Source: Chlorogloea sp. CCALA 695
GTDB lineage: Bacteria > Cyanobacteriota > Cyanobacteriia > Cyanobacteriales > Chroococcidiopsidaceae
DNA: 64,000 nt
Assembly: GCF_003003885.1 (NCBI RefSeq)
Contig: NZ_PVWN01000014.1
Span: forward strand, 1-64,000
Direction: 5' to 3'
The notes beneath the pieces were generated by a model. It saw only the letters and a list, made by a program, of their open reading frames with translations, did no database searches and had not been told where the DNA came from. The stretch's first letter is position 1; each line of letters opens with the position of its first letter. Of this stretch, positions 1-8,698 are shown in pieces. The position numbers and the translations under genes are program-made.

Positions 1-19
1 AGATGTGTATAAGAGACAG
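1..19 (+). other. Residual Nextera/Tn5 mosaic-end adapter
   Basis: Bases 1-19 read AGATGTGTATAAGAGACAG, identical to the Tn5 mosaic-end sequence of Nextera library adapters. It is not genomic. It lies at the extreme left edge and is read in frame into the first gene, where an apparent GTG start at 5 would add five adapter-coded residues (MYKRQ). The true upstream sequence is therefore missing from this assembly. Confidence 0.95.
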
Positions 20-1453
20 AAAGTAGAGCCTGTAAAACAAACTACGCTATTAGTAGGAATCAAAACCACCGGACAGATTGAAACTCTACCTAGCAAAAAG
101 GTAGAAGTTACTGCACCAATTCCGGGGACAGTTGTTGAATTGCTGGTAGAACCTGGGGCAGCCGTCAAAAAAGGTCAGCCCGTTGCGGTTTTATCCAGTC
201 CCGAATTAGTAGAATTGCGCGTACAATCCCAGGAAAAACAAGCCGAAGCCAAAGCCGATTTGCAGCAAGCGCAAGCCGATTTAAACCTAGCAAAGCAAAA
301 TCTCCAACGTCAGCGTCAAATAGCTATTGCAGAAATTGAACAAACTCGCACCGAACTTAAAGTAGCTCAAGAACAATACGATCGCGATCGCGATTTAGTT
401 AACGTAGGAGCGCTCCCCCGTCGGGAAATGCTCGAATCCCAAGCTCATTTAGCCGAAGGTAAGGCACAACTATCTAAAGCGAATAGCCGCCGGGAAGTAT
501 TAGAAGCTGAAGCCCAACTAAAACGCGCCCAATCGTCGGTAGAAGTTGCTAATTCTCGCATCAGTCTAAGTCATGCTGCCTACCAAATGCGGCTCAAGCA
601 GCTAGGAAACCGTGCGAACGAGAAAGGATTAGTTGTAGTATCTGCTGCCATATCTGGCATAGTTAGCGATCGCACAGTTAGCCTCGGACAGTCGTTTCAA
701 GATGCGGGGGGCAAGCTAATGACAGTTGTTAATGATAACCAGGTTTTTGCGACGGCGAATATCTATGAAAAAGATTTAAACCAAATTGCTCTAGGTCAAA
801 AGGTAAATGTAAAAGTTGATAGTTTACGCGATAGCGCAAGCGCGCCCGGTAACGGGCTTCGCACTTTTAGCGGACAAATTACCCGCATTGGCTCAGTTGT
901 AGAAAGTGAAACCAGAATTATCCCCGTCCAAGCGCAATTAGATAACTCTGATCGTCAGCTAAAGCCGGGAATGTTTGCCCAATTAGAAGTTTTAACAAAC
1001 CAAACGCCCACAGCTATTTTGGCAATTCCTAGCAATGCAGTAGTGGAAGCTAAGGGTAAACAACTTATCTACATTCAAAATGGCGATGCTTACCAAAGCG
1101 CCGAAGTTAGGTTAGGGCAAACTTCGGGAAACATGGTTGAAGTAAAAAGCGGTTTATTTGAGGGCGATCGCATTGTTACCCAGGGCGGCAATTTGCTTTA
1201 CTCCCAATCCTTACGCAGCGACAATAAAACCCCCACCGTTCATCCTGAAACTACCGTTAAAAAAGATGCAACGATTCCTTGGTGGTTGGTGATTCCGGCT
1301 AGTGGTGCGATCGCATCTGCTGCTTTTTGGGTAGGTCGTCGTACCTCACCCCAATTGATGCCAGTTATCGAAATTTCTGCCAATAAATCGCCCCTATGGA
1401 ATGACAATCATCGCGTTACAGAAGCTCATGAATCAACCAAAAATCAAAAGTAA
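20..1453 (+). CDS. RND efflux periplasmic adaptor subunit (HlyD/CusB-like), 5' truncated
   Basis: Membrane-fusion subunit that would link an inner-membrane RND pump to an outer-membrane channel. The open frame gives about 477 genomic residues and no native start, because the gene runs into adapter sequence. Visible in order: a lipoyl/barrel-sandwich half (PIPGTVVELLVEPGAAVKKG), a long Gln/Ala/Glu-rich coiled-coil hairpin, the second lipoyl half (VVSAAISGIVSDRTVSLGQ), a beta-barrel region, then a membrane-proximal domain. Unusually, the C-terminus carries a hydrophobic segment (PWWLVIPASGAIASAAFWVG, near residue 424 counted from base 5) followed by Arg-Arg, suggesting a C-terminal membrane anchor. 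A palindromic repeat (828-862) adds about 11 residues (near RDSASAPGNGLR). The pump gene follows after 2 bp. The substrate is not readable; metal is likely from context. Confidence 0.85.
   Translation, partial: KVEPVKQTTLLVGIKTTGQIETLPSKKVEVTAPIPGTVVELLVEPGAAVKKGQPVAVLSSPELVELRVQSQEKQAEAKADLQQAQADLNLAKQNLQRQRQIAIAEIEQTRTELKVAQEQYDRDRDLVNVGALPRREMLESQAHLAEGKAQLSKANSRREVLEAEAQLKRAQSSVEVANSRISLSHAAYQMRLKQLGNRANEKGLVVVSAAISGIVSDRTVSLGQSFQDAGGKLMTVVNDNQVFATANIYEKDLNQIALGQKVNVKVDSLRDSASAPGNGLRTFSGQITRIGSVVESETRIIPVQAQLDNSDRQLKPGMFAQLEVLTNQTPTAILAIPSNAVVEAKGKQLIYIQNGDAYQSAEVRLGQTSGNMVEVKSGLFEGDRIVTQGGNLLYSQSLRSDNKTPTVHPETTVKKDATIPWWLVIPASGAIASAAFWVGRRTSPQLMPVIEISANKSPLWNDNHRVTEAHESTKNQK
828..862. 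repeat. Dispersed 35-bp GC-rich palindromic element, copy 1 (inside adaptor gene)
   Basis: The element has the core CCCGGTAACGGG (stem CCCG/CGGG, loop GTAA) with a long arm (GCGATAGCGCAAGCGCG) on the left and a short arm (CTTCGC) on the right. The same arms occur in the opposite order at 5404-5437 and 7285-7319. Length and frame keep the adaptor gene open across the insertion. Confidence 0.85.
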
Positions 1454-1455
1454 TC

Positions 1456-4400
1456 ATGCTCAGTACCATCATCAAATGGTCAATTGCTCGACGTTGGTTA
1501 GTTATTATAGCTGCGGCTTTAATCACCGTTTGGATTGTGCGCGTCGCTTCGCAAATGCCTGTAGATGTTTTCCCTAACTTTGCACCTCCCCAAGTCGAAA
1601 TTCAAACAGAAGCGCCAGGACTTGCACCCGAAGAAGTTGAATCTCTGGTAACTTTGCCCATAGAAAGCGCGATTAATGGTACTCCTGGCGTTACAACGGT
1701 AAGGTCTTCTTCTGCTGTGAGTATTTCTGTAGTCAAGGTTATTTTTAATTGGGGAACAGATATTTATCAAGCCAGACAATTAGTAACGGAACGATTGCAA
1801 CTTGCTGTAAATAAGCTACCCCAAGGAGTTGAACCGCCCCAGATTTCCCCAATTAGTTCTCCCATTGGGACAGTAATTAAGTACGCTTTTACGGTGGATG
1901 GAGAAACGCCAAATAGTTTAATGGAAGTGCGCCGAATTGTAGATTGGCAAGTTACGAATCGCCTTTTAGCAGTACCAGGAGTTAGTCAAATAGTAGTATT
2001 TGGTGGAGATGTCCGCCAGTATCAAGTATTGATCGATCCGGCAAAACTTAGCGCCTTTGATATTTCTTGGCAACAAGTGACCGAAGCTGCACAATCGGCT
2101 AATATTAACGCTCCTGGAGGCTATTTAACTAACTCCGACACCGAATTATTAGTACGGGGTATAGGACGCATTAGCTCGATTGAAGACTTGAAGCAATCAG
2201 TAATTACTGCTCGTGATGGTATCCCCATTAAGTTAGAAGATATAGCAGATGTGCAAATAGGGGCGGCTACTAAGCGCGGCGATGCTAGTTTAAACGGGCA
2301 AAAAGCAATTATCATAATTGTGAATAAACAGCCCCTTGCAGACACGCCAACGGTAACTCGTGCGATTGAAGATGCGATCACCGAGCTTAAATTAGGTTTA
2401 CCCAAAAACATTAAAGTTACTGTTACTTTCCGTCAAGAAGACTTTATCGAAGCATCAATCGATAATGTCAGATCAGCGCTAATTGAAGGGAGCATTATTG
2501 TTGCTTTAATTCTTATCCCGTTTTTGATGGATTGGCGGACTTTAGTTGTAAGTCTTACCGCCCTTCCCCTATCGTTGTTATTGGGTTTACTAGCGCTGAA
2601 CTGGTTGGGACAAGGACTTAATACAATGACCCTGGGAGGACTTGCAGTAGCTATTGGTTCGGCGGTTGACGATGCGATTGTCGATGCTGAAAATGTCCAT
2701 CGTTCTTTGCGGGAAAACAAGTTTTCATCCCAAAAGCGATCGCCTTTACAAGTTGTCTTTACTGGCTGTCAGGAGGTGCGAGACTCTTTATTTGGCGCAA
2801 CTTTAATTACTGTTGTGGTCTTTTCGCCAATTTTTGCCTTAGCTGGTGTAGAAGGGCGCATTTTTACACCGATGGGAATTGCTTATTTAGTCGCCGTTTT
2901 AGCTTCTAGTTTGACAGCACTTACCGTTACTCCGGCTTTGTGTGCGATTTTACTACCTTCTGGTCGCTTGCTGGAAAGAGAACCTTTTGTAGCAAGATTT
3001 TTTAAAGGGTTTTATCGTCCGCTTTTAAATTTTTCGATGCGTAACTCTAAAGTAATTTTAGCGATCGCTTTAGGAAGTTTAGTAGCTGCGATCGCTATCG
3101 TCCCCTCCCTAGGACGAGTTTTTTTACCACCATTTCAAGAAAAATCGCTGATTAATTCTGTAAATCTCTATCCTGGCGTGTCTTTGGAAGCTACTAACCG
3201 CGCTGGTTTTGCCATTCAAGATGCGCTAAAAGGCGATCGCGCTTTTGAGCAAATCGCTTTACGTTCTGGACGCGCACCGGGAGATAGTGATGTTGGCGGT
3301 GTCAATTTTGGCGAATTAGATGTTGAATTGAGCAAATTAGGGATAAAAAACCGGGAAGCAAGTATCGAAAAATTGCGCGCAGAATTTGCAAAATTGCCAG
3401 GAGTTGCAGCCAATGTTGGCGGATTTATTTCTCACCGCTTAGATGAAGTGCTGTCAGGAGTTAGAAGTGCGATCGCTGTTAAAATTTACGGTACTGATTT
3501 AGAACAACTCCGAACTATTGGTAGCCAAGTTGAAGAAGTAATGAAAACTGTTACCGGGGTTGTAGATTTGCAACTTGAGCCGCAAGTCCCTATTAGACAA
3601 ATGCAAATTCAGTTTGACAGAGTGGCGGCGGCTCGTTATGGTTTAACAATTAAAGAACTAGCAGAAACTATCGAAACGGCTCTTAATGGGCGAGTAGTTT
3701 CAACAGTGTTAGAGCAGCAACAAACCTTTGATTTAGTAGTGTGGTTAAAAAAATCAGATCGCGGCAATTTGGAAGCGATTGGTAACTTGTTAATTAATAC
3801 TCCGACCGATCAACAAATTCCTTTAGCTCAAGTTGCCAAAATTAGTTACGGTACTGGCCCAAATACAATTAATCGGGAAAATGTTTCGCGGCTAATTATA
3901 GTATCCGCCAATGCTACCGGGCGAGATTTGCGCTCGATAGTTGATGAAATTAGCGTAAAAGTCAAGCAACAAGTACAGTTACCTGCGGGTTACTTTATTC
4001 AGTACGGCGGTCAATTTGAATCGGAACAACGAGCCACGCAGAATATATTAGCTTTTAGTGCGATCGCCTTTGTTTTAATTACTGTATTAATGTATCTAAC
4101 AGTAAAGTCTATTCCTTCAACTTTAATGATTATGATTAACTTACCTTTAGCATTAGTCGGAGGTGTAATTTCTGTCGCTTTAACGGGTGGGGTTATTTCT
4201 GTTGCTTCGCTAGTTGGGTTTATTACATTATTTGGCGTAGCAACTCGAAACGGCTTGTTGTTAGTTGATAATTACAATGCCAAATTTGTCGAGGGGATGG
4301 TTTTTAAAGAAGCAATAATTCAAGGCTCAATGGAGCGTCTAAATGCTATTTTGATGACAGCTTTCACCTCGGCTTTAGGTTTAGCCCCTTTAGTAGTCGG

Positions 4401-4587
4401 GAGTGGCGCAGGTAAAGAAATTCTCCAACCTTTAGCAGTTGTGGTGCTAGGAGGTTTATTTACTTCTACAGCTTTAACTTTATTAGTTTTACCAGCTTTG
4501 TACGCTCAATTTGGGAAAACATTAGTACCTCAAACAAAGCCAATTCAATCAGAAGATTTTACACTGCAAGATTTACCTATTCATTAA
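1456..4587 (+). CDS. Efflux RND transporter permease (CusA/CzcA-like heavy-metal family)
   Basis: Proton-driven inner-membrane pump of 1043 residues, full length for the RND superfamily. It opens with the typical TM1 (RRWLVIIAAALITVWIV) followed by the PVDVFPNFAPPQVEI segment of the CusA/CzcA group. The two halves each carry a large periplasmic loop and a six-helix bundle. The TM4 motif region reads GSAVDDAIVDAENVHRSLRE (residues near 404-420), where charged residues of the proton relay sit, and the second-half equivalent is GVATRNGLLLVDNYNAKF. The gene starts 2 bp after the adaptor stop, so the two are co-transcribed. Linkage to a two-component system resembles cyanobacterial Cop/Nrs metal-resistance loci. 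Substrate specificity (Cu, Ni, Co, Zn or another) is inference only. No outer-membrane TolC-like gene is in the window. Confidence 0.9.
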   Translation: MLSTIIKWSIARRWLVIIAAALITVWIVRVASQMPVDVFPNFAPPQVEIQTEAPGLAPEEVESLVTLPIESAINGTPGVTTVRSSSAVSISVVKVIFNWGTDIYQARQLVTERLQLAVNKLPQGVEPPQISPISSPIGTVIKYAFTVDGETPNSLMEVRRIVDWQVTNRLLAVPGVSQIVVFGGDVRQYQVLIDPAKLSAFDISWQQVTEAAQSANINAPGGYLTNSDTELLVRGIGRISSIEDLKQSVITARDGIPIKLEDIADVQIGAATKRGDASLNGQKAIIIIVNKQPLADTPTVTRAIEDAITELKLGLPKNIKVTVTFRQEDFIEASIDNVRSALIEGSIIVALILIPFLMDWRTLVVSLTALPLSLLLGLLALNWLGQGLNTMTLGGLAVAIGSAVDDAIVDAENVHRSLRENKFSSQKRSPLQVVFTGCQEVRDSLFGATLITVVVFSPIFALAGVEGRIFTPMGIAYLVAVLASSLTALTVTPALCAILLPSGRLLEREPFVARFFKGFYRPLLNFSMRNSKVILAIALGSLVAAIAIVPSLGRVFLPPFQEKSLINSVNLYPGVSLEATNRAGFAIQDALKGDRAFEQIALRSGRAPGDSDVGGVNFGELDVELSKLGIKNREASIEKLRAEFAKLPGVAANVGGFISHRLDEVLSGVRSAIAVKIYGTDLEQLRTIGSQVEEVMKTVTGVVDLQLEPQVPIRQMQIQFDRVAAARYGLTIKELAETIETALNGRVVSTVLEQQQTFDLVVWLKKSDRGNLEAIGNLLINTPTDQQIPLAQVAKISYGTGPNTINRENVSRLIIVSANATGRDLRSIVDEISVKVKQQVQLPAGYFIQYGGQFESEQRATQNILAFSAIAFVLITVLMYLTVKSIPSTLMIMINLPLALVGGVISVALTGGVISVASLVGFITLFGVATRNGLLLVDNYNAKFVEGMVFKEAIIQGSMERLNAILMTAFTSALGLAPLVVGSGAGKEILQPLAVVVLGGLFTSTALTLLVLPALYAQFGKTLVPQTKPIQSEDFTLQDLPIH

Positions 4588-4697
4588 AAAGCAGAGTGAG
4601 AATTTATATAGTTTATAAAAGGAAAAAATCTCACCAAATTGCAAGTTACAGACCGTTTGAAACATTCTTCAATCATCAAAAAAATAAAGAGAAGCAA

Positions 4698-5174
4698 ATG
4701 AACATTAAAACCAGATTAATTATTCTCAACAGTATCGGATTAATCTTTTTAGGATCTTGTAGCAAGAATATACCATCTACCTCTACAAGTAGCCCAAGTT
4801 CTTCCCCCGTAGAAGTTGTACAAAGTCCTTCTGTATCCCCGGAAACCAAACAATCCCAAGCATCTAAAGGAGGTCAAGTTGTAGAATCCAGTGGTTATCA
4901 TTTAGAGTTTGTATCTGAAGTAGAAAATAATGGCACTCACCTAGATTTCTATCTGCAAAAAAGCGACAATCACGAAGCAATTTCTAATGCTAAAGTAACA
5001 GCGCAAATTCAGTTACCTGATGGTACGCAAAAATCCCTTCATCTCCCTTATGATGCTGGAGGTAAACACTATGCAGCTTTGCTCCCGGAAAAAGCATCGG
5101 GAGAATATAATATAGCAATTCTTTCGGACATTAGCGGCGAAAAAGTGAACGGTCGCTTTACCTTTAAACGCTAA
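4698..5174 (+). CDS. Lipoprotein with YtkA/FixH-like domain, efflux-operon partner
   Basis: The 158-residue lipoprotein is read from the ATG at 4698, preceded by AAAGAGAAG; an upstream in-frame start at 4596 would place the lipobox too far from the N-terminus. The signal peptide ends in the lipobox LGSC, with the lipidated Cys at residue 21. A Ser/Thr/Pro-rich linker follows, then about 95 residues of predicted beta structure (GYHLEFVSEVENNGTHLDFY and a closing GEYNIAILSD strand) that resemble YtkA-like/FixH-like periplasmic domains. Position between the pump and its two-component system suggests a periplasmic metal-handling or sensing accessory, by analogy with small third genes of cyanobacterial copper operons. 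No His/Met-rich metal motif is obvious. Confidence 0.7.
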   Translation: MNIKTRLIILNSIGLIFLGSCSKNIPSTSTSSPSSSPVEVVQSPSVSPETKQSQASKGGQVVESSGYHLEFVSEVENNGTHLDFYLQKSDNHEAISNAKVTAQIQLPDGTQKSLHLPYDAGGKHYAALLPEKASGEYNIAILSDISGEKVNGRFTFKR

Positions 5175-5200
5175 ATACTACTTTCAATTTGCTAGTTTTT

Positions 5201-5953
5201 ATGAAAGTTCTTTTAGTCGAAGATGAGCCAGATTTGGGTGCAGCAATCAAACGTACCTTAAACCAAGAAAAGTATATCGTTGACTGGGTTTTAGATGGCA
5301 ATGAAGCTTGGTATTGTTTAGAAAATCAGTGGACTGAATATACCTTAGCGATCTTTGACTGGTTGCTACCGGGGTTATCAGGATTAGAACTTTGTAAAAA
5401 ACTGCGAAGCCCGGTAACGGGCGCGCTTGCGCTATCGTACAAACAAACTCTCCCGGTTTTGATGTTGACAGCTAAAGACAGAATGGAGGATAAAGTTGCA
5501 GGCTTAGACGCAGGTGCAGATGATTATTTAGTAAAACCTTTTGGGATGGTAGAATTGCTGGCGCGGTTACGAGCATTACAAAGACGATCGCCATCTTTTC
5601 AATCCCAACAACTACAAATCGGTAATTTAACTTTAGACTACGCTACTTATACTGTTTATATTCAAAATTCAACGGGCGATCGCCAATTTGTTACCTTAAC
5701 TAGCAAAGAATTTCAGCTACTAGAATACTTTATGAAGCACCCCAATCGAATTGTTACCCGCGATCAAATTCAAAATCAGCTTTGGGAAATGAGCAATGAA
5801 CCCCTAAGTAATGTTGTGGCGGCGCAAATGCGGTTACTAAGACGTAAACTCTCCCAAATAGAAAACGTTAGCTCTGATCGGGGGCTTGTACCCCATCGCC
5901 TAATTGAGACTATACACGGTATCGGCTATCGTCTCAATCATGAACCAAAATAG
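5201..5953 (+). CDS. OmpR-family response regulator (RppA/NrsR-like)
   Basis: 250-residue transcription factor. The ATG at 5201 starts the receiver domain directly (MKVLLVEDEP), so it is preferred over TTG at 5189. The acidic pocket is E7/D8, the phospho-acceptor is D53 (AIFDWLLPG), and the conserved Lys lies in LVKPF. A winged-helix DNA-binding domain follows (LTSKEFQLLEYFMKHPNRIV, RRKLSQI, IHGIGYRL). A 34-bp palindromic repeat at 5404-5437 is read through in frame as SPVTGALALSY between beta-3/alpha-3 and beta-4 of the receiver, lengthening a loop that is short in the family. The stop overlaps the kinase start by 14 bp. It probably controls the upstream efflux genes in response to metal or redox stress (inference from linkage). 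Confidence 0.9.
   Translation: MKVLLVEDEPDLGAAIKRTLNQEKYIVDWVLDGNEAWYCLENQWTEYTLAIFDWLLPGLSGLELCKKLRSPVTGALALSYKQTLPVLMLTAKDRMEDKVAGLDAGADDYLVKPFGMVELLARLRALQRRSPSFQSQQLQIGNLTLDYATYTVYIQNSTGDRQFVTLTSKEFQLLEYFMKHPNRIVTRDQIQNQLWEMSNEPLSNVVAAQMRLLRRKLSQIENVSSDRGLVPHRLIETIHGIGYRLNHEPK
5404..5437. repeat. Dispersed GC-rich palindromic element, copy 2 (inside response regulator)
   Basis: The short arm GCGAAG comes first, then the core CCCGGTAACGGG, then the long arm CGCGCTTGCGCTATCG. Relative to copy 1 the arms are inverted, but the core with its GTAA loop reads in the same direction. The translated insertion keeps the receiver-domain frame. Confidence 0.85.
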
Positions 5954-7298
5954 GCTTTTTCACCTCACTCGCTGGCGCTTGGCGGCTTGGTACGCCGTTG
6001 TTATGGGGTTTATCCTCGGATTGTGTGGTTTGGGGGTATATCAGGCTATAGTCCATGCTCATTGGCAAACTTTAGATCGAGAATTGGAGTCCGTCGCGGG
6101 AACTCTCCATGACAGTATTGAAAACACTTTGAAGCAACCGGGACGCTTAGAACCAACTACTCAGCAACTTTTACCAGAAGAAAGGGAAAAGCGCCATATT
6201 TTAGGAGCCATTCACCAAGGCGATTATTATGTAAGATTATTAGATAATTCAAATCAAATTGTTACGTTGGCAGGTTTTCAGCCTCAAGAATTGCGGTTAA
6301 TTTCAAAAAAAGGTACTTGGCAAACCCTAAAAGATGCCCAAGGAAGCCGCTATCATCAAATTTCTTTAAGTCTGCACACTCAAAACAATATCTCTTGGGG
6401 ATCTATGCAGATGGGACGAAGTCTCCAAGATATTGACAATTATTTAGCTAATGTCAAACTAATTTTGCTGTTAGGATTACCCATTGCGATGATTTTGGTA
6501 GGCGCTTCTAGCTGGTGGTTGTCAGGGTTAGCAATGCAACCAATTTATCAATCTTATCAACAAATTCAGCAATTTACTGCCGATGCTGCTCACGAATTGC
6601 GGACACCTTTAGCAGCTACCCAAGCAACGATAGAATCAGCTTTAAGACTTTACTCTTTTACATCCGAAACTCAAGATATATTCAGCGCCATAGAACGGCA
6701 AAATCGACGTTTAACTCAATTAGTTACAGATTTACTATTGCTGGCGCGGATGGAAAAGCAACCATTGTCAGTACAAAATCGATGTTGCTTAAACGATCTT
6801 GTCAGCGATTTAGTTGAAGAATTGGCAAGTTTAGCGATGCCTGCGGCGGGCTGCGCCTACGCCTCCCACATACAATTAACCTCTAAGTTCAAGCTAGACA
6901 AACCTTTGACTGTTTTAGGAAATGAATCGCAACTTTATCAAGTAGTTTCTAATTTAATTATTAATGCTATCCAATCTACTCCTAAAGGTGGTCGGGTGAC
7001 AGTAACCTTAGAACGCAACCATAACTATGCTGTAATTAATATTCAAGATACAGGTATAGGGATTGACGCATCGGAGCAAAAGCGGATTTTTGAGAGATTT
7101 TATCGTGTAAATAGTGATCGCTCTCGTAATACTGGTGGTTCTGGATTAGGACTTGCGATCGCATCAGTGATTGTTCAAGCTCACAAAGGTAGTTTACAAG
7201 TACAAAGTCAATTGGGTAAAGGTAGCACTTTTACGGTGCGTCTACCTCTAGCAACCAATATCTTTCACAAGGATGATAACAAAGGCGAAGCCCGGTAA
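5940..7298 (+). CDS. Two-component sensor histidine kinase (RppB/NrsS-like)
   Basis: 452 residues from the ATG at 5940, overlapping the regulator stop. The protein has TM1 (WYAVVMGFILGLCGLGVYQAI), a sensor segment of about 130 residues, and TM2 (LILLLGLPIAMILVGASSWW). The dimerisation/phosphotransfer box is AAHELRTPLAA with phospho-accepting H218, followed by the N box (NLIINAIQSTPKGG), G1 (DTGIGID) and G2 (GGSGLGLAIA). It is expected to phosphorylate the adjacent regulator. Two repeat insertions are visible. One (6834-6862) adds MPAAGCAYAS between the HisKA and ATPase domains. The other (7285-7319) supplies the last residues GEAR and the stop codon, so the native C-terminus may have been cut or replaced; all catalytic motifs lie upstream of it. 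Confidence 0.9.
   Translation: MNQNRLFHLTRWRLAAWYAVVMGFILGLCGLGVYQAIVHAHWQTLDRELESVAGTLHDSIENTLKQPGRLEPTTQQLLPEEREKRHILGAIHQGDYYVRLLDNSNQIVTLAGFQPQELRLISKKGTWQTLKDAQGSRYHQISLSLHTQNNISWGSMQMGRSLQDIDNYLANVKLILLLGLPIAMILVGASSWWLSGLAMQPIYQSYQQIQQFTADAAHELRTPLAATQATIESALRLYSFTSETQDIFSAIERQNRRLTQLVTDLLLLARMEKQPLSVQNRCCLNDLVSDLVEELASLAMPAAGCAYASHIQLTSKFKLDKPLTVLGNESQLYQVVSNLIINAIQSTPKGGRVTVTLERNHNYAVINIQDTGIGIDASEQKRIFERFYRVNSDRSRNTGGSGLGLAIASVIVQAHKGSLQVQSQLGKGSTFTVRLPLATNIFHKDDNKGEAR
6834..6862. repeat. GC-rich dispersed repeat of a second family, inside histidine kinase gene
   Basis: A 29-base GC-rich block begins GCGATGCCTGCGGCGGGCT and ends GCGCCTACGC. It resembles short interspersed palindromes frequent in filamentous and Chroococcidiopsis-type cyanobacteria (recalled, not searched). 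It is translated in frame as part of MPAAGCAYAS, in a linker where kinases of this type normally have no such Ala/Gly-rich stretch. Confidence 0.65.
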
Positions 7299-7319
7299 CG
7301 GGCGCGCTTGCGCTATCGC
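7285..7319. repeat. Dispersed GC-rich palindromic element, copy 3 (kinase 3' end)
   Basis: Same sequence and orientation as copy 2. The TAA of the GTAA loop (7296-7298) is the stop codon of the histidine kinase. The element then extends 21 bp into the intergenic gap. Confidence 0.85.
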
Positions 7320-7346
7320 TCGTTGCAGGATGAAAAGTAAGCAAAT

Positions 7347-7760
7347 ATGACAACTATAGACAATATTTTTTCTGACTATCAAGAACCATCCGCAGTTTTG
7401 ACGGCTTTATTGCTAGAAATAGGCGAAGCTTTGCAATGCGATCGCATTTTTCTGTAATTGCGTAATCCTCAAACAAAATTTGGTAAGGTTGTAAACTGCT
7501 GGCGACGCACTCTAGAAATTCCCGATGTCAATGACTACCAGTGGAAACAAGAACCCGAATCTTTACACCATAAAGATCCCTTATTTGCGGCGGCTTTGCA
7601 GACCAAACCATCAGTTTATGTTAACTATGTTAACACCGCAAGTATTAACATAGTTAACAAAGATGTTGAGCAAAAAATCTTTAAACACTGGGCATTAGTT
7701 CATGCTCACTTGTGCAAAGATGGTCAATTATAGGTAATTTTGCAACCTTTGTTAGTTTAA
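7347..7760 (+). pseudogene. GAF-domain protein, broken by two nonsense codons
   Basis: Starting at the ATG at 7347 the frame reads MTTIDNIFSDYQEP, then LEIGEALQCDRIFL before a stop at 7455-7457. The same frame continues without a shift (LRNPQTKFGKVVNCWRR, DPLFAAALQTKPSVYV, HAHLCKDGQL) to a second stop at 7731-7733, then VILQP before a third. Cyanobacterial GAF proteins of this type have FLYLRNP and DGQLWGILQP at these places, so Tyr-to-stop and Trp-to-stop changes fit. The remainder of a normal GAF protein is absent. It is a remnant of a phytochrome-like or signalling GAF domain with no function expected. Confidence 0.75.
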
Positions 7761-7765
7761 AAAGT

Positions 7766-8037
7766 AGCAATTTAAAAACACCAGAAGATTTAGTGGAAAA
7801 GAAGTAGGCTTACAACTAGGCTCAACTCAACAAACAGCAGCCAAAAAATTTAAAAATGTCAAACTCAAATCCTTAAATAAAACTTCAGAAATTATCCAAG
7901 AAGTGAAAGCAAAAAGGATAGATGGAGCAGTTATTGAAGATACGAGCGCTAAAGGTTTTATCAACAATAATCCAGACTTAGAATTTACGACTATTACCAA
8001 TGCTGGTAAAGATGAAATAAAGCGGCGAAATCGATAA
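7766..8037 (+). pseudogene. Remnant of polar amino-acid ABC transporter substrate-binding protein
   Basis: From 7795 the frame reads GKEVGLQLGSTQQTAAKKF, then KTSEIIQEVKAKRIDGAVIE and NNPDLEFTTI, ending at TAA 8035-8037. These match the second lobe of family-3 (HisJ/GlnH-like) binding proteins. Just upstream, TPED fits the same protein in another frame, so a one-base deletion near 7790 is likely. The N-terminal lobe and signal peptide are missing. Confidence 0.7.
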
Positions 8038-8081
8038 TTTAGTCAAATAATGGTAAACCTGTTGTTGCAACAGAAACTCTT

Positions 8082-8336
8082 AGCAATTCTGGCTTTAGTT
8101 TTGGCAAAATAGCTGCTAGTATTCCTTACATTATTGACGGTATCCGAGTAACACTGTTATTCACTCTACTAGCAGCGTTTCTAGGATTCCTTTGGGGGGG
8201 GGTAATACTGTCGTTATGCAAAATTTTGACCCTCAAGCCTTTACAGTGGTTTGTAAACGCTTACACATCGATTTTTAGAGGTACGCCGCTACTATTACAA
8301 ATTACCTTAGTCTATTATGCAACACCTCAATTAACT
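8082..8336 (+). pseudogene. Remnant of polar amino-acid ABC transporter permease (GlnP/HisM type)
   Basis: The frame reads SNSGFSFGKIAASIPYIIDG, then IRVTLLFTLLAAFLGFLWGG and YTSIFRGTPLLLQITLVYYA. The FRGTPLLLQ segment is diagnostic of the HisMQ/GlnP permease family. It contains a nine-G run at 8194-8202 without loss of frame. The sequence stops matching at PQLT, where it joins directly to the ATPase remnant, so the permease C-terminal half, including the EAA loop, has been deleted. Confidence 0.75.
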
Positions 8337-8698
8337 CGAAAAAGTAGGTTTGAGTGAAAAAGCTGATGTCTACCCCTCTAAGCTATCAGGAGGACAAAAA
8401 CAGCGCGACCGCCGTCGCCCGATCTTTGGCAATGACACCAGAAGTAATGTTATTTGACGAGCCAACTTCTGCCCTCGATCCTGAGATAGTAAAGGAAGTA
8501 TTGCAAGTAATGAAAGACTTAACGCAAAGGGGGATTATAATGGCGATCGTTACTCACGAAATGGGCTTTGCTAGAGAAGTAAGCGATCGCATATTATTTC
8601 TAGATCAAGAAAGATTAGCTAAAGATGCGACACCTAAAGAGTTTTTCCACAACCCCCAATGCGATCAGGCTAAACAGTTTCTCGAAAAGATGTTGTAA
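8335..8698 (+). pseudogene. Remnant of polar amino-acid ABC transporter ATP-binding protein (GlnQ type)
   Basis: Only the C-terminal half remains. LEKVGLSEKADVYPSKLSGG followed by QKQR ends in a +1 frameshift at about 8407. The frame then resumes as AVARSLAMTPEVMLFDEPTS through Walker B, the D-loop and the switch His (AIVTHEMGFAREVSDRI), and on to the normal C-terminus. Walker A and the whole N-terminal half are gone. The open frame starting at 8354 would make a 114-residue protein without an ATP-binding P-loop, so function is unlikely. It ends immediately against the stop of the convergent pentapeptide gene. Confidence 0.8.

Follow-up and report, generated by a model that had tools for sequence, protein, structure and literature searches.

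How gene-less repeats of 20-30 nucleotides (nt) move is, to our knowledge, an open question. For repeats of the SDR5 type, the abstract of Elhai's 2008 study is said to give lengths of 21-27 nt. In Nostoc punctiforme and its relatives, SDR5 is inserted precisely into the HIP1 motif after the third nucleotide, and directed cutting at HIP1 is named as a partial explanation for it (PMC4390886). Hairpins are the subject of two further papers: inversion of a loop without other change is documented for loops of 4 nt, bacteria included, together with loop inversions in ribosomal RNA (PMC8794818), and loop flip-flop at plastid hairpins is described among small inversions (PMC6824564). Here we analyzed a palindromic mini-element present in three copies in the first 64,000 nt of contig NZ_PVWN01000014.1 of Chlorogloea sp. 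CCALA 695, the stretch referred to below as the window. The explanation we favor, at a probability of roughly 0.6, is that the copies are SDR5-like, HIP1-inserting repeats of 27 nt whose loop has been flipped by hairpin-loop inversion, with the flipped copies then multiplied.

A preliminary description of the window had reported three palindromic copies, and a window search bore this out, with exact matches to the core CCCGGTAACGGG on the + strand at 845-856, 5410-5421 and 7291-7302. When one mismatch was allowed, 0.13 matches were expected by shuffling, and none of 100 shuffles reached three. Including the HIP1 halves, the full element is 35 base pairs (bp) long, GCGAAGCCCG-TTAC-CGGGCGCGCTTGCGCTATCGC, and lies at 828-862 on the - strand (copy 1) and at 5404-5438 and 7285-7319 on the + strand (copies 2 and 3, respectively). 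In each copy, 27 nt interrupt the eight-base cyanobacterial palindrome HIP1 (GCGATCGC) in the form GCG^AAGCCCGTTACCGGGCGCGCTTGCGCT^ATCGC, and removal of the 27 nt restores GCGATCGC; GCGA^TCGC is an equally good insertion point, one A being ambiguous. The final base of copy 2 is T, giving a right half of TATCGT. Relative to copies 2 and 3, copy 1 has its arms the other way round, yet every copy has GTAA as its + strand loop sequence. Copy 1 had been singled out as the inverted one, which is correct for its arms, but in element orientation it carries TTAC, the common form of the family, and it is copies 2 and 3 that carry the flipped loop, GTAA.

To place these insertions, we compared the source genome of the window (5.23 Mb, 168 contigs; hereafter the own genome) with related genomes of the same genus, G001, G003, G004 and G005. 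Where the own genome has the 35-bp unit of copy 1, G005 carries GTGATCGC, which differs from HIP1 at a single base and is cleanly 27 nt shorter. At the site of copy 3, G004 has an intact HIP1. Flanks were then compared in two censuses, one of 37 own sites against these four relatives (56 site-by-genome comparisons) and one of 26 sites of the relatives against other genomes (42 comparisons); sites lacking a comparison, such as L010, L016, L023, L024, L204 and, in the first census, window copy 2, were dropped. Together, 62 of the 98 comparisons were unoccupied, 29 occupied and 7 unclassed, one occupied pair among the 29 entering from both sides. HIP1 was exact in 30 of the 62 unoccupied orthologous comparisons, had one mismatch in 15 and more mismatches in 17. 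No target-site duplication, the criterion for a MITE (miniature inverted-repeat transposable element) of a DDE transposon, was seen beyond the one ambiguous A; filled minus empty sites equals 27 nt. There are 67 HIP1 motifs in the window, and the target context exceeds the motif itself, being roughly AAA(A/G)T-GCGATCGC-ACTTT. Unoccupied sites at L334, L339, L389 and L268 read GCTATCGC instead of GCGATCGC; the T is the same as at the right end of the element and could have been left behind by an imprecise loss. One own site reading GCTATCGC is occupied in G001, G003 and G004.

The own genome holds 29 copies with the stem and full right arm (loops: 20 TTAC, 5 TAAC, 3 GTAA and 1 TTAT), 38 copies with the stem GCCCGNNNNCGGGC, and 64 places with both ends, GCGAAGCCC...TATCGC, when a 32-bp sister form with core TGCGTGC is counted. 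The full-arm hairpin form was found in four of five other genomes of the genus and in none of 94 further genomes of the family and order. The both-ends pattern occurred in 6 of 195 genomes drawn from the order, the own genome included, and the hairpin core was absent from all 13 both-ends places listed outside the genus in this survey. A broad contig scan, whose listed matches were mostly chance-like and from other phyla and whose loci were kept out of all counts, included among the matches listed full-arm records named as uncultured Aliterella and Chroococcus sp. CMT-3BRIN-NPC107. We conclude that these very small dispersed repeats, inserted in HIP1 in an SDR5-like mode, form a genuine family at genus level, in a host close to Aliterella. 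No description of the element or its loop flips appeared in the titles and abstract openings of the literature searched, a search that mostly did not extend to subscription papers.

Members of the family differ in length, with insertions of 27 nt for the window form, 24 nt for the TGCGTGC sister form, and shorter or longer for other variants. The 32-bp sister, GCGAAGCCCTGCGTGCGCGCTTGCGCTATCGC (24-nt insertion), is common in the genus, for example at L365, L367, L379 and L350, and two further families within the order have forms resembling it, with CTAG replacing CTTG. A 21-nt HIP1 insertion, GCG^TAGGCGCAGCCCGCCGCAGGC^ATCGC, lies in frame in a histidine kinase gene at window positions 6834-6862 on the - strand; this pattern was present in 7 of 40 genomes searched, at no more than 7 copies per genome. 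At L007 (~1495-1547, own C57), a copy has its right arm tandemly repeated.

Loop orientation was scored in 87 copies from fetched stretches of five genomes. Each copy had to show a core and a start from lists of 13 and 6, respectively, so that degenerate forms (including L226, L227 and L228) fall outside this set. In element orientation, the cores were GTTACC(G) in 38 copies, GTAACC(G) in 33, other unflipped point variants in 8 and flipped in 8 (four GGTAACG, two GGTAACA, one GGTTACG and one GGTTATG). The flipped share is therefore 8/87, or 9% (95% interval 4-17%), against 79 unflipped copies, and loop length is kept throughout. Flipped loops occur alongside several different right arms. Loop orientation varies independently of arm orientation, and the proposal of an inserted mini-element in which the two are uncoupled is borne out, although such uncoupling is uncommon and two flipped copies happen to fall in the window. 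We considered whether TAAC arose from TTAC by a 5-nt inversion of GTTAC and rejected this, as the stem gives no support for that axis and a T/A substitution is simpler, even though the TTAC/TAAC difference recurs at two shared sites, L020/L033 and L025/L049. Where G005 C462 has a flipped copy, the own genome (C139; L241, L246) carries a different variant, GTGATAGCGTAAGCGTTAGGGCTTCGC, and the flank continues only after ~1.6 kb of additional DNA.

Most likely, a template switch between strands during copying of the CCCG/CGGG hairpin turned the loop over, after which flipped copies would have been multiplied like any other copies. The pattern in the window would then have come about by chance, from an ordinary copy on the - strand together with two flipped ones on the + strand. 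In keeping with the second step, the flipped GGTAACAGG form occupies one site in own contig C3 and a different one in G005, which indicates that flipped copies are multiplied. As a mutation of hairpins, the loop flip is probably nothing unusual.

Several observations weigh against this explanation. No site was found with both loop orientations in otherwise identical elements; at the sole informative site, the loop is unflipped in the own genome and in G004 (whose copy is degraded) and flipped in G001, but there is a difference in the right arm as well. The flipped copy at G001 C336 has a right half, GTTCCAGC, without the CGGG stem half, so the flip there was not produced by the present stem, and its site is an empty HIP1 in three relatives. 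The site of flipped own C116, judged from one flank, is likewise an empty HIP1 in G005, and the flips at both sites could have arrived with the insertion. Finally, coding copies of the TTAC class carry GTAA on the sense strand in 10 of 11 cases, or 11 of 12 when window copy 3 is taken as coding.

The two empty sites suit an alternative in which loop orientation is fixed not in place but at insertion, the intermediate being single-stranded DNA or RNA in a folded state. Such an RNA intermediate was reportedly proposed by Elhai in 2008 for repeats of this kind. At the shared, older insertion just mentioned, however, the loop differs between the own genome with G004 and G001, although the arm differs as well, and we regard fixation at insertion as improbable. 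The folded strand, which had been suggested as a possible insertion mechanism, survives as the likely route to loop inversion and would be speculative as an account of insertion. Slightly more doubtful still is that flipped subfamilies go back to one or a few ancient flips, all flipped copies being related by descent without recurrent flipping. The presence of GGTAACAGG at two sites in two genomes would fit such founders, as would the finding that perfect-stem, full-arm GTAA copies occur only in the own genome, two of the three lying 1.9 kb apart. The several right arms among flipped copies speak against it, because they require either repeated origin or exchange between subfamilies.

The strand bias inside genes bears on a further alternative, also raised in the preliminary description, that selection retains a stable GNRA-type hairpin in messenger RNA (mRNA) and has turned the loop to sense GTAA whatever the arms. 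Genes were called by open reading frame (ORF) and codon scoring rather than with a published caller, making copies near ORF ends uncertain; the shared site L020/L260, for example, was assigned to coding sequence in one genome but fell between genes in the other. Between same-strand genes, 15 unflipped copies were sense and 15 antisense, while within coding sequence 18 of 22 unflipped copies were antisense (p = 0.004; 15 of 19, p = 0.019, without shared sites), in both loop classes. The genic and intergenic orientations differed at p = 0.02, and at p = 0.07 once shared sites were dropped. The 10 of 11 coding TTAC-class copies with sense GTAA are what GNRA selection would predict, yet this excess arises because the arms are biased antisense, a bias common to the TAAC class. 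That class (33 GTAACCG copies and 1 GTAACTG, plus 2 flipped) has a GNRA loop on neither strand, which argues that GNRA selection is not the general cause of the bias.

Inside genes, both flipped copies were sense-oriented but only 1 of 10 in the unflipped TTAC class was, a borderline difference (p = 0.045; 0.055 without a shared site) in favor of RNA selection, although the two flipped copies are neighbors in one cluster. Over the five flipped GTAA copies of determinable strand, GTAA was sense in 3 and antisense in 2 (p = 0.31 against the unflipped TTAC class). Antisense insertion yields the peptides DSASAPGNGLR or AIAQARPVTGFA, while sense insertion in one frame gives the arginine-rich EARYRARLRYR (read by eye), and tolerance of the inserted peptide could produce the antisense bias inside genes, a simpler reading. 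In a folding computation, GTAA and GTTA hairpins were 1.5 kcal/mol more stable than TTAC and TAAC hairpins, which may leave room for a weak RNA effect on the loop. Equal use of both loops on the sense strand, which the preliminary description had named as refuting evidence, was thus seen between genes but not inside them. General selection for a sense-RNA GNRA loop finds no genome-wide support and is the least probable of the alternatives we weighed.

A less expected pattern emerged at the shared sites. Across 21 orthologous HIP1 addresses occupied in at least two genomes, orientation agreed in 29 of 29 comparisons, whereas the middle block differed beyond point changes in 18 of the 29 (11/16 in the first census and 7/13 in the second). 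Different blocks were judged by eye on the sequences, and those at L018/G001 and L197/own could instead stem from changes built up over time or from a deletion. One example is the G001 C205 site, where G001 and G004 carry the 35-bp hairpin form, the own genome carries the 32-bp TGCGTGC form within flanks 99% identical to those of G001, and a precise, unfilled HIP1 is present in G005 and G003. Because G001, G003 and G005 are incomplete and fragmented genomes, individual cases of exchange need checking.

One candidate explanation for the shared addresses was independent insertion into the same favored HIP1 sites. A leave-one-out model of the flanks at 65 sites predicted orientation in 50 of 65 and separated occupied from empty HIP1 with an area under the curve of 0.72. 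Two independent insertions would match in orientation with a probability of ~0.72, and agreement at 21 of 21 sites then has p ~0.001 in this model, which ignores relatedness; independent insertion is disfavored, though not fully excluded.

Tentatively, and at odds that we put below even, the repeats may instead be replaceable cassettes at fixed HIP1 addresses, with orientation kept and the middle block (loop, stem half and right arm) exchanged for another variant, often one present at further places in the same genome. Exchange in place, or loss and re-insertion, would account for a kept orientation with a changed middle block. If true, elements that rank among the smallest mobile ones known would be undergoing concerted evolution, or else excision followed by re-insertion, and the loop flip would be one product. 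Since empty, filled and differently filled HIP1 sites occur in close genomes (flanks up to 99% identical), insertion, loss and exchange can be counted. Confirmed exchange would make HIP1 a docking site with continuing turnover and bear on the purpose of the motif, and we consider variant exchange at fixed addresses the part worth following.

By Pfam, the genes of the region encode an HlyD-type adaptor, an RND transporter, a response regulator and a histidine kinase. Copy 1 lies in frame (RDSASAPGNGLR) in an ORF for a membrane-fusion (HlyD/CusB-type) adaptor at 5-1453 (+ strand; HlyD_D23, E = 3.4e-30), which begins at the contig end. Positions 1-19, the contig start AGATGTGTATAAGAGACAG, are presumably an Illumina Nextera mosaic-end adapter, so the first codons of this ORF (MYKRQ) are probably an artefact. 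Copy 2 is in frame (LRSPVTGALALS) in a response regulator ORF at 5201-5953 (+ strand; Response_reg and Trans_reg_C). Reading frame is kept at the insertions because 27 nt is a multiple of three, and tblastn matches spanning the insertion lacked nine residues net in 9 of 9 cases at copy 1 and 6 of 6 at copy 2, some of these matches being overlapping loci of one gene. The two in-frame coding copies that had been proposed are therefore copies 1 and 2. Copy 3 does not lie inside a gene but ends one, its loop supplying the TAA stop codon (7296-7298) of a histidine kinase ORF at 5940-7298 (+ strand; HisKA and HATPase_c). Downstream, 7346-8353 contains no ORF of at least 100 amino acids and separates the kinase gene from an ORF at 8354-8698 that by eye resembles an ABC ATPase; it possibly consists of broken genes.

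Compared with known systems, the window repeats share with REPINs and MITEs that they are short, palindromic, dispersed and non-coding. Typical MITEs are much longer, and unlike them the window repeats target HIP1 without a target duplication having been seen. In size, the 27- and 24-nt forms fall inside the 21-27 nt reportedly covered by SDR5-type repeats. Like SDR5, the family inserts between HIP1 nucleotides 3 and 4 and is very small, dispersed and non-coding. It differs in that the hairpin form was seen in one genus only, the loop flips, and variants differ at shared addresses; the likeness noted here is one of mode. Small inversions at hairpin loops (PMC6824564, PMC8794818) likewise leave a loop of unchanged length between inverted repeats, in either orientation, although here the hairpin sits inside a mobile repeat and a flip can be multiplied. 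The perfect stem with both loop orientations that characterizes such inversions is present in the 87-copy set, except at G001 C336, where the stem half is absent. We regard the repeats as a variant, at genus level, of the already known HIP1-inserting, SDR5-like kind of very small repeat.

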